Part shown: in pieces, positions 19,606 through 21,146 of the stretch
How positions within the stretch are numbered: the first letter of the stretch is position 1
Layout: each line of letters begins with the position of its first letter
Assembly: GCA_029262995.1 (NCBI GenBank)
Contig: JAJCYH010000011.1
Location: forward strand, 248,001 to 312,000
Reading direction: 5' to 3'
Origin: Saprospiraceae bacterium
GTDB lineage: Bacteria > Bacteroidota > Bacteroidia > Chitinophagales > Saprospiraceae
DNA: 64,000 bases
Made by a program: the position numbers and the translations under genes
Notes under the pieces: generated by a model
What the model saw: the letters and a program-made list of their open reading frames with translations, nothing else
What the model was told of the DNA's origin: nothing
The model's database searches: none

Positions 19606-19854
19606 CTAATTGGTGCTTTCTACGATGATTTTTTTCGCCATATCAAGAATGTCAGTATTCTCAATATTTACAATGCCACCATGAGGACCTGGCTGTATGT
19701 GTCGGCCTACTATGTTGTCACTGTTGTATTTGTTGGCACCAAAATAATTTCTAACAGATTGTTCGTCAATATTAAGTGACTGAGCGATTCGGCTTATGCT
19801 GCCGGTAGGAAGACTGTGTTTGATATCACGTAGTTCTTTGTAGGTTATGATCAT
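19606..19854 (-). CDS. Small helix-turn-helix DNA-binding protein
   Basis: This 82-residue protein starts YKELRDIKHSLPTGSISRIAQSL. The segment GSISRIAQSLNIDEQSVRNYF (residues about 17-37) reads as a helix-turn-helix with the second helix DEQSVRNYFG. It continues with the unusual GRHIQPGPHGGIVNIENTDI motif and a final helix (ILDMAKKIIVES). I know similar small proteins in Bacteroidota annotated only as DNA-binding. It is isolated: it converges with mazG, and the two candidate sRNA units lie 140 bases upstream on the same strand, ending in terminators before it. The target is unknown. Confidence 0.72.
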   Translation of the reverse strand: MIITYKELRDIKHSLPTGSISRIAQSLNIDEQSVRNYFGANKYNSDNIVGRHIQPGPHGGIVNIENTDILDMAKKIIVESTN

Positions 19855-19996: not shown

Positions 19997-20061
19997 AAAA
20001 AAAACCCGTGAATAAATTCACGGGCATTACTCAATTTAATAACCAAAACTCAATATTTTAT
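19997..20061 (-). ncRNA. Candidate small RNA, unit 1 (ends in a terminator)
   Basis: On the minus strand the unit carries AGTTTTGGTTATTAAATTG (20050-20032), then an 8-bp stem CCCGTGAA / TTCACGGG (20024-20005) and eight T (20004-19997), a textbook rho-independent terminator. The 19-base block is identical to that in unit 2, 118 bases away. A -7-like TATTATTTG, with one extra base relative to the consensus, lies at 20076-20068, so the start would be near 20061 and the RNA about 65 nt. No -33 motif is visible. It could instead be the decayed copy of a duplicated sRNA gene. Confidence 0.5.
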
Positions 20062-20108
20062 ATATCTCAAATAATATGCCAAACATTAATGATTTATCAT
20101 ATATGTAT

Positions 20109-20171
20109 AAAAAAAGCTCGTGACTTTTCACGAGCAAAAACGAATTTTACAATTTAATAACCAAAACTTAC
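20109..20171 (-). ncRNA. Candidate small RNA, unit 2 (promoter plus terminator)
   Basis: The minus strand shows, in order, a -33 TTTG, 19 bases, a -7 TATATTTG, the shared block AGTTTTGGTTATTAAATTG (20168-20150), an 8-bp stem GCTCGTGA / TCACGAGC (20135-20116) with a four-base loop, and seven T (20115-20109). The predicted transcript is about 63 nt with no ORF. The stem sequence differs from unit 1 but keeps pairing, and a shared CGTGA core, which suggests selection on structure. I do not recognise the family; Bacteroidota RNA families such as Flavo-1 should be compared. Confidence 0.58.
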
Positions 20172-20177
20172 ACATCT

Positions 20178-20208
20178 CAAATATAGAACATATTATAATA
20201 TTACCAAA
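20178..20208 (-). promoter_or_regulatory. Promoter of sRNA unit 2 (TTTG-N19-TATATTTG)
   Basis: On the minus strand, TTTG at 20208-20205 and TATATTTG at 20185-20178 are separated by exactly 19 bases. This matches the Bacteroidota -33/-7 arrangement and is one of the two best promoter matches I found in the window. Confidence 0.65.
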
Positions 20209-20293
20209 TGTGTAAGTCTTTTATTTACAGCTTTTTATAAATAATAAAATTATATAATATATAAAATATTGATAATCAATAATATCGAAATGT

Positions 20294-20980
20294 GTGGAAG
20301 CATTAAATAAAATATCAAACAGCATCATTTTTGAAGACAATCACTTGTTAATTGTAAACAAACAGGCAGGAATATTGTCTCAGAGGGACCATACGGGAGA
20401 TGATTCTTTGGTTGATCTGCTTAAATCTTATATGAAAGTCAAATACAACAAACCTGGAAATGTCTACTTGGGACTAGCTCACAGATTAGATCGTCCTGTT
20501 AGTGGAGCTATAATTTGCTGTAAAACCAGTAAGTCGCTTACACGAATTAACAAGATGATTAAGCAGAGGCAGATTGAAAAAATCTATCATGCCCTTTGTT
20601 TAAATGCACCAGATAACAAGTCTGGGCAGGTCGAGTCTTATTTAATAAAAGACACAGTAAAAAATTTCGTAACTGGTTTTGTCAATCCAAAAGAAGGTGC
20701 AAAAAAAGCAATTCTGAACTATCAATATTTACAAAAATCAAATCAAGGCCATCACCTGCTTGAAGTAATATTACAAACAGGACGTCCGCACCAAATACGC
20801 GTTCAATTAAATTCTATATCATGTCCAATTCTAGGGGATGTGAAGTATAAAAAGCAGAAACCTTTGCCTGATAAATCAATCGCACTTCATGCAAGACAAT
20901 TGTCTTTTGAACATCCAGTTACCAAAGAAAAAATCAAAATCATCGCTGATTATCCAAAACAAATGTGGTGGAATTTGTAA
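20294..20980 (+). CDS. RluA-family pseudouridine synthase
   Basis: This is an RNA uridine isomerase of the short RluA type, 228 residues with no S4 domain. Motifs are IVNKQAGILSQRD near 25-37, the catalytic block HRLDRPVSGAIICCKTS (residues about 63-79, Asp66 nucleophile) and TGRPHQIRVQLNSI near 162-175. The frame opens at a GTG at 20294. An ATG four bases earlier is out of frame and stops after six codons, so GTG is the likely start. It precedes the SRP RNA gene, which has its own promoter. The substrate (23S rRNA or tRNA site) is not deducible. Confidence 0.88.
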   Translation: MEALNKISNSIIFEDNHLLIVNKQAGILSQRDHTGDDSLVDLLKSYMKVKYNKPGNVYLGLAHRLDRPVSGAIICCKTSKSLTRINKMIKQRQIEKIYHALCLNAPDNKSGQVESYLIKDTVKNFVTGFVNPKEGAKKAILNYQYLQKSNQGHHLLEVILQTGRPHQIRVQLNSISCPILGDVKYKKQKPLPDKSIALHARQLSFEHPVTKEKIKIIADYPKQMWWNL

Positions 20981-21019: not shown

Positions 21020-21027
21020 TACTTTTG
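21020..21027 (+). promoter_or_regulatory. -7 promoter element of the SRP RNA gene
   Basis: TACTTTTG matches TAnnTTTG and ends five bases before the first paired bases of the SRP RNA, exactly where a start site would be expected. The -33 motif is not clear. Confidence 0.6.
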
Positions 21028-21032
21028 CGGTC

Positions 21033-21125
21033 GGTGAGGGGCAAACAGCCAGCTCCTGCTGAACTCCCCCAGGGCAGAAATGCAGCAAGGGTAGGTGGTT
21101 GAGCGGCTAGGTTTGTTTCCTCACT
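21033..21125 (+). ncRNA. ffs: Signal recognition particle RNA, small bacterial (4.5S) type
   Basis: The 93-base region folds as one long hairpin: GTGAGG (21034-21039) pairs with CCTCAC (21119-21124), and GCAAAC (21041-21046) with GTTTGT (21111-21116). The apex is GCA-GAAA-TGC (21074-21083), a GNRA tetraloop, followed by AGCAAGGGTA, the asymmetric loop that binds Ffh with helix 8. No Alu domain is present, so it is the short form. It guides membrane and secreted proteins to the translocon with Ffh and FtsY. The transaldolase ATG is only 22 bases beyond its 3' end, with no terminator between, so the two may be transcribed together and processed. Confidence 0.88.
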
Positions 21126-21146
21126 TTTCATTAAACCCTTCACAGC

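Follow-up and report, generated by a model that had tools for sequence, protein, structure and literature searches.

Sister small RNAs (sRNAs) that share a 5′ seed and repress surface-protein mRNAs are familiar from the enterobacteria, where OmrA/OmrB and similar OMP sRNAs act in this way; OmrA/OmrB are Hfq dependent in these organisms. In the accessible portions of the Vibrio literature, Qrr1 requires sigma-54 together with an enhancer-binding protein and acts after transcription (PMC10162802), and V. harveyi carries five Qrr paralogues (PMC2680268). Within the Bacteroidota, the available part of one report describes GibS and FopS of Bacteroides thetaiotaomicron as paralogous sRNAs with a shared seed and different promoters (sigma-ABfr for FopS, motif PM2 for GibS), which pair at translation starts, including that of a SusC porin mRNA, and associate with the RRM protein RbpB; that part of the report does not mention sigma-54 (PMC11697453). 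A transcriptome of F. psychrophilum describes other sRNAs, as far as the available portion of that paper goes (PMC9723704). In open-access literature, judged by title and the start of the abstract, we found no Saprospiraceae small RNA and no sigma-54-controlled sRNA from the Bacteroidota.

The locus reported here lies in a stretch of 64,000 nucleotides (the window; contig C11, positions 248001-312000) from a 3.77-Mb Saprospiraceae genome (G000) that is assembled in 32 contigs and is 97.7% complete. Two tandem units on the minus strand, termed sRNA A (approximately 64 nt, 20109..20172) and sRNA B (approximately 59 nt, 19997..20055), correspond to units 2 and 1 of the original prediction, respectively. 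Their 5′ ends are predicted to lie near 20172, as inferred from the −7 box, and near 20055, as inferred from the usual sigma-54 spacing; the latter replaces a start previously placed near 20061. Both seed regions carry the exact 19-mer AGTTTTGGTTATTAAATTG on the minus strand (20150..20168 in A and 20032..20050 in B), and both units end in a minus-strand terminator, which is GCTCGTGA/TCACGAGC followed by T7 in A (20109..20135) and GCCCGTGAA/TTCACGGGT followed by T8 in B (19997..20025). With up to 3 mismatches allowed, these are the only two copies of the block in the window (0.19 expected; two seen in 1 of 100 shuffles). Both RNAs fold better than shuffled sequences (z of −2.73 for A and −3.80 for B), and the ORF list of the window contains no frame of at least 60 amino acids over either unit. 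The existence of two tandem sRNA units with a shared block and terminators is confirmed, and the identical 19-base block, the strong hairpins followed by 7 to 8 T, and the lack of a fitting ORF are all as originally described.

That the units could not be assigned to a named family also stood: a search of the whole window against Rfam 15 returned no family at the gathering threshold for either unit, with subthreshold scores there of 13.6 to 20.7 bits against cutoffs of 40 to 99. The Qrr model was absent among the matches listed, both at and below threshold. With the 218-nt region that holds both units as a blastn query, strong matches were found in 11 of the 14 genomes of the genus and in several other genomes of the family. 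In the genome under study itself, A and B are the only two copies (97.7% complete assembly).

For sorting into types, loci fetched from the genomes matched by blastn and from a public scan were searched for T[AG]AGTTTTGGTT, which gave at least 183 distinct occurrences, chance matches included. The 183 listed occurrences comprise 41 of type A, 50 of type B, 78 of type C, and 14 others, three of which were reassigned to type A on inspection, bringing that type to 44. The consensus of the 5′ region is GUGUAAGUUUUGGUUAUUAAAUUGUAAAAUUCGUUUUUGCUCG for type A, UAUGAGUUUUGGUUAUUAAAUUGAGUAAUGCCCGUG for type B, and UGUAAGUUUUGGUUAAARAAUUGUAAGAUUCGUUU for type C. Terminator sequences vary in types A and B with pairing kept. 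In 23 type A sequences, 99.5% of 184 stem cells are paired and 20 cells carry two-sided changes, compared with 4.5 in shuffles; in 26 type B sequences, 91.8% of 233 cells are paired and 15 carry two-sided changes, compared with 3.9. For neither type did any of 500 shuffles score as high.

A covariance model built from 40 sequences, including both window units, matched 76 of the 150 Saprospiraceae genomes searched, with one to six matches per genome; some of these genomes had contributed sequences to the model itself. In an order-wide sample, 28 of 248 genomes matched, and in a phylum-wide sample, 4 of 395; all 28 and all 4 are Saprospiraceae. These two samples come without a count of the genomes from outside the family, and the filters applied to them were stricter, so that weak matches elsewhere may have been missed. 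Among the matches listed, public records bearing the block are labeled Saprospiraceae, Saprospirales, Chitinophagales, or Bacteroidetes/Bacteroidota, with two exceptions. Scan matches at L127 (Enterococcus), L148 (Desulfosporosinus), and L130:7744 look like chance; the match at L136:910 does not, being the antisense strand of the target 1 gene (described below) in genome G002. On these comparisons, A and B belong to an unnamed RNA family of the Saprospiraceae. The original prediction had read the units as members of a multicopy sRNA family with selected hairpins, and this reading is supported by the copy numbers, by the compensatory stem changes, and by the conservation of block and stem in related genomes.

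The two sisters have different kinds of promoter. Upstream of sRNA A, a −33 TTTG (20208-20205), N19, and the −7 box TATATTTG (20178..20185, minus strand) bear out the textbook promoter first proposed for this unit, and an inverted repeat, ACACATT-N12-AATATGT (20188..20213, minus strand), is its probable operator. What had been taken for a −7 box with one extra base in front of sRNA B belongs instead, as its −12 half, to the sigma-54 promoter TTTGGCATATTATTTG (−24/−12; 20068..20083, minus strand), and no −33 element is visible because the promoter is of this type. By sigma-54 geometry, transcription would start a few nucleotides upstream of the block, which is thereby inferred to form the 5′ end of the RNA.

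These assignments extend across the family. Types B and C are preceded by TTGGCA[CT] and then, at a fixed distance, TTG, which we take, from the consensus, to be the sigma-54 −24/−12 element. The motif TGGC[AC]-N6-TTG lies upstream of 127 of the 183 listed scan occurrences, compared with 157 of 40,000 random 45-mers from the same loci (0.4%); when the spacing was varied from 2 to 11, each value other than N6 was seen at most twice. None of 41 type A upstream regions has the sigma-54 motif. All 44 type A copies instead have the −7 box TAnnTTT[GA], at the same distance in 41, and 37 of 44 have the dyad ACATATT-N12-AATATGT within 1 mismatch (spacer of 12 in 41 of 44), which at this stringency occurs in 1 of 128 type B and C upstream regions. 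Different promoters for A and B thus imply sister RNAs under two controls. Six sRNA-like copies from the "other" class lack the sigma-54 motif (L071, L093, L120, L069:5752, L090:4049, and L100:399), L090:4049 and L100:399 by one change each. At L071:947, L093:5904, and L120:158, the RNAs resemble type B, carry GCCCGGGGAAAAGTCTCACGGG, and lack a sigma-54 promoter; they may represent another promoter class or relics.

Candidate trans-acting factors were sought in the same genome. It encodes RpoN (PF04552, E = 5.4e-48) and one RRM protein (NF058537 Rbp_regulator, E = 1.7e-36, 124.3 bits against a cutoff of 100). No match to the Hfq profile PF17209 was found there; the same profile matched 5 of 14 control genomes. 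Because rpoN is nearly universal in the family (145 of 150 genomes), the idea that loss of the sRNAs tracks loss of rpoN proved uninformative and was dropped. Upstream of the sRNAs we found no convincing common activator site or dyad; AATTA-N10-TAATT occurs at 9 loci among 75 type C upstream regions, compared with up to 4 in shuffles. Like the Vibrio Qrr RNAs (sigma-54/LuxO), sRNA B has a sigma-54 −24/−12 promoter in a genome that encodes RpoN. Unlike them, it comes from a different phylum, has no Rfam match, occurs where no Hfq was detected, lacks an identified activator or UAS, and has a sister, A, without a sigma-54 promoter.

The genomic neighborhood bears on whether the RNAs act in cis. 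Downstream of B in the window, as in many relatives, lies p82 (19606..19854, minus strand), a gene for a conserved 82-amino-acid protein with no match in Pfam or NCBIfam; by eye, p82 has a helix-turn-helix look, and it is often near ald and the sRNAs. The divergent neighbor encodes an RluA-type pseudouridine synthase (20294..20980, plus strand), downstream of which a Bacteroidales small SRP RNA (RF04183, 55.8 bits; 21026-21127, plus strand) is the sole Rfam threshold match in the window. Across the family, A or C1 copies are often beside mqnD and rluA, B or C1 copies often before ald and p82, and C2 copies often between secD-like and T9SS-cargo-like genes (names read from sequence).

On this evidence, A and B might act in cis on ald (alanine dehydrogenase) or p82, as a leader or attenuator with a regulated terminator: in 16 of 50 B copies, the first downstream gene in the same orientation is ald, mostly at a distance of 25 to 220 nt, and C1 copies also often precede it. 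However, 16 of the 50 have a convergent ORF as their next one (mechanical ORFs of at least 80 amino acids), and none of five folds offered an alternative antiterminator. The copies are moreover dispersed: some lie kilobases apart, some on separate contigs, and some in tandem sets of 2 to 4. Pairs are separated by 9 kb in G002 and by 2 kb in G003, occupy opposite strands in G006, and are split between contigs in G005. We rejected the leader interpretation, which we regard as very improbable; judged from this arrangement, the sRNA copies look like free-standing genes. The starts of genes linked to the sRNAs show no marked excess of pairing.

Targets of trans action were sought in the 14 genomes of the genus with the pattern AACCAAAACT-N0..25-ATG, which places a seed complement near a start. 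One match, AACCAAAACTT...CCCATG, recurs in 11 of the 14 genomes, always before homologous genes (target 1). The complete copies (7 of 8 fetched) encode proteins of 1,399 to 1,422 amino acids. Identity to the query is 42 to 51% for 9 of 10 target 1 proteins. In the two that were scanned, the T9SS type A sorting domain (TIGR04183) and a dockerin-like match score above cutoff; HYR_4C scores below it. In the genome under study, the target 1 gene lies outside the window (G000:C9, locus L301:9775-14022, minus strand). The ATG follows the 20-nt core of the site by 5 to 8 nt. In 7 of 11 genomes, the frame of the gene does not stay open through the site, so that the start must fall after it. As to the three genomes without this recurrent match, in G006 the 3′ end of the target 1 gene is at a contig end and the start is missing, and G004 (79% complete) and G013 have no strong sRNA match by blastn. 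G008 (78% complete) has target 1 without a strong sRNA match and was scored with the sRNAs of G007.

Predicted pairing at target 1 is long and is strongest with B. Duplexes with the cognate B RNA range from −25.0 to −34.7 kcal/mol over 26 to 31 predicted pairs and fall below the minimum of 200 shuffles in all 10 genomes that have B; those with the cognate A RNA range from −16.9 to −27.6 kcal/mol and beat every shuffle in 7 of 10. In a background of 480 start regions, a duplex with B of −25 or better occurs twice, once at target 1 itself. The site also forms a conserved island, with a mean identity of 0.90 over −26..−8 and 0.72 over −34..−27, compared with 0.37 just upstream and 0.49 to 0.69 in other flanking blocks; the 7 bases before the ATG reach 0.90. 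The 11 sites are related by descent. Together, these predictions suggest that B probably silences the T9SS-protein messages by long pairing next to the start codon; there are no RNA data, and repression is inferred. A and B resemble OmrA/OmrB in being sister sRNAs with a shared 5′ seed and predicted surface-protein targets, but the Rfam OmrA-B model scores 14.8 bits here against a cutoff of 40.

Several controls limit what may be concluded from matches alone. The target pattern was not enriched overall (127 matches, compared with 207 for a reversed control), nor was TAACCAAAACTTA in the genome under study (24 matches against 42); since the reversed control exceeds the true count, motif counts by themselves say nothing. 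Because the pattern demands a 10-nt seed complement near an ATG, duplex energies are partly selected. We ranked 72 further pattern matches, leaving out the sRNA genes, target 1 matches, a DUF3078 site in G000, second ATGs, one G002 match (C14) whose matched sequence repeats that of its C13 match, and all matches from G013, which has no strong sRNA match. Nine of the 72 reach −25 with B, most of them inside genes, and 3 reach −29, so that a good energy alone is weak evidence; by the same measure, 10 of 10 target 1 sites reach −25 and 7 of 10 reach −29. In a set of 1126 regions (up to three ATGs per ORF), internal starts at L045 (−29.4) and L110 (−27.7) score well and look like chance. The case is carried by recurrence before one gene, by the conserved island, and by a site that fits a changed seed.

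This last observation comes from a coevolution scan of 3381 start regions from sRNA-bearing loci, a set without the target 1 loci of the genus, in which each region was paired with the sRNAs of its own locus. The best of the 3381 regions, L152:2546, precedes a gene for a 1371-amino-acid protein with a T9SS sorting domain that is 30% identical to target 1 over residues 117 to 1371 (E = 7e-127). The sRNA of this locus is of type C, GGUUAAAGAAUUGUAAGAUUCG, and the site reads CGAATCTTATTTAAATTCTTTAACC. Paired with its own RNA, the site scores −27.9 kcal/mol, whereas the best of 500 shuffles gives −23.5; paired with the window's A and B, it scores −12.4 and −12.5 kcal/mol, respectively. Computation thus places the site of this homologue in register with the changed seed of its own lineage, in one lineage. 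The second-best region, L092:3790, belongs to another T9SS protein (−25.6). In G030, the target 1 homologue has a weaker site (−22.0 with A and −21.5 with B), which does no better than the best of 500 shuffles. Downstream of it, however, another start matches B over 25 bp without a break (−30.2); it belongs to a short ORF that is followed by a large secreted-looking protein.

Two other accounts accept the sRNAs and dispute the target. The family might sequester a protein, in the manner of a sponge for an RRM-type protein, through its U-rich 5′ region, with the mRNA matches being secondary. Such a role would suit the near invariance of the 5′ region and the presence of an RRM protein (NF058537) in the genome, and U-rich single-stranded RNA is a typical protein ligand. 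A sponge would not, however, be expected to show a start-codon site that is conserved in 11 genomes with 26 to 31 predicted pairs (cognate RNAs were used for 10 of them), nor a site at L152 that fits a changed seed, and we consider this account unlikely. Alternatively, the pair may have other targets, the site before the surface protein being a conserved leader element that happens to resemble the seed complement. The site is A-rich, as Bacteroidota mRNA leaders tend to be; the search pattern was itself chosen for complementarity; and, as noted above, other seed-bearing sites also reach −25. Against this, 8 of 11 target 1 sites continue into ACTC, which belongs to the B-specific part; so low a background energy is rare (the 2 of 480 above); and the site of the homologue at L152 suits the seed of its own RNA but not that of the window. 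We give this possibility little weight and retain pairing of the sRNAs with target 1 as the preferred reading.

A second putative target is a very small protein. The two strongest of the 72 further matches, in G002 and G010, precede the gene for the same 35-amino-acid protein, with the site 8 to 11 nt before the ATG; by eye, the protein has one hydrophobic, membrane-like stretch (..LxDLRFWxVxxFS..SFLIMSYPG). G003 and G005 have this protein and a site as well (34 and 35 amino acids, respectively), downstream of a pyrD-like gene (read from sequence), so that a small-protein gene with the site was seen in 4 genomes. Its duplexes with B score −27.5 to −37.6 kcal/mol, and in G010 the site includes the A-specific complement GAATTTTACAAT, and A pairs there at −29.0. 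An earlier ATG is present in frame in at least G002 and G003, and the start of the small protein is for this reason only inferred. An exact pattern search did not find this target among the matches of the genome under study. The proteins (L293, L300, L322, and L333) form an unnamed family of 34 to 35 amino acids with the pattern ..LRFW..FS..LI[ML]SYP[GN].

A candidate main target in the genome under study was rejected. The gene for a DUF3078 protein (L198:1524-2444) carries, 10 nt before its ATG, a stretch of 14 nt that is perfectly complementary to sRNA A (−20.2 kcal/mol), and the site is not conserved among 25 other homologues: the next best, −20.0, is in G023, which has no sRNA by the covariance model, and the others score −14.0 or weaker (4 of 30 loci were left out of this comparison). 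Separately, an identical repeat of TGACTTTAACTAAAA-like units, which contains the seed complement, occupies G000:C9:1-120 and the end of G000:C18 (L196 and L199) and probably marks an assembly break at a repeat.

On balance, we consider it probable that A and B are sister trans-acting antisense sRNAs, under sigma-54 control and −7/dyad control in B and A, respectively, that block translation at the start codons of target 1 and, in some species, of the 34- to 35-amino-acid protein. Each would be a transcript of approximately 60 nt, whose 5′ 25 to 35 nt form a conserved pairing region ahead of an intrinsic terminator. sRNA B would be made by sigma-54 polymerase and should therefore need an enhancer-binding activator, with which it would be turned on; transcription of A from a −7 promoter of the housekeeping type, with a dyad as operator, would provide a second input. 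B, and A more weakly, would pair over approximately 26 to 31 bp just upstream of the start codon of the approximately 1,400-amino-acid T9SS protein, with the same pairing at the start of the small protein in some species. This pairing would block ribosome loading and hence translation, and the RRM protein may help.

Conserved complementarity at the translation starts of unlinked mRNAs, as for a trans-acting antisense sRNA, is seen in these predictions, with energies that are partly pattern selected. The family, the promoter types, the stem covariation, the target sites with their conservation, and one fit between a changed site and a changed seed have been demonstrated by computation; that the RNAs are transcribed, that their effect is repression, that an activator is involved, and that the RRM protein assists are inferences made without RNA data. 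As far as the available part of the GibS/FopS report allows comparison, A and B are likewise Bacteroidota paralogues with a shared seed, unlike promoters, and predicted start-site pairing (sequences were not compared). The genome under study also encodes an RRM protein (Rbp_regulator), whose binding to these sRNAs is only presumed by analogy.

More tentatively, and with somewhat less than even confidence, we propose that the family is an output of a Saprospiraceae-wide sigma-54 regulon. In this scheme, an activator-controlled sRNA and a differently controlled sister would stop translation of giant T9SS surface proteins and of a tiny protein; Hfq would play no part, an RRM protein may assist, and seed and targets would coevolve from genus to genus. 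Within the scope of the literature search given above, the family would provide both the first Saprospiraceae sRNA found and the first sigma-54-controlled sRNA found in the Bacteroidota. It opens the questions of what sigma-54 signals in these bacteria, which are represented here mostly by metagenome-assembled genomes, of how sRNAs act without Hfq, and of post-transcriptional control of type IX surface display, and it offers a readable promoter switch, sisters on separate controls, and a directly testable target.
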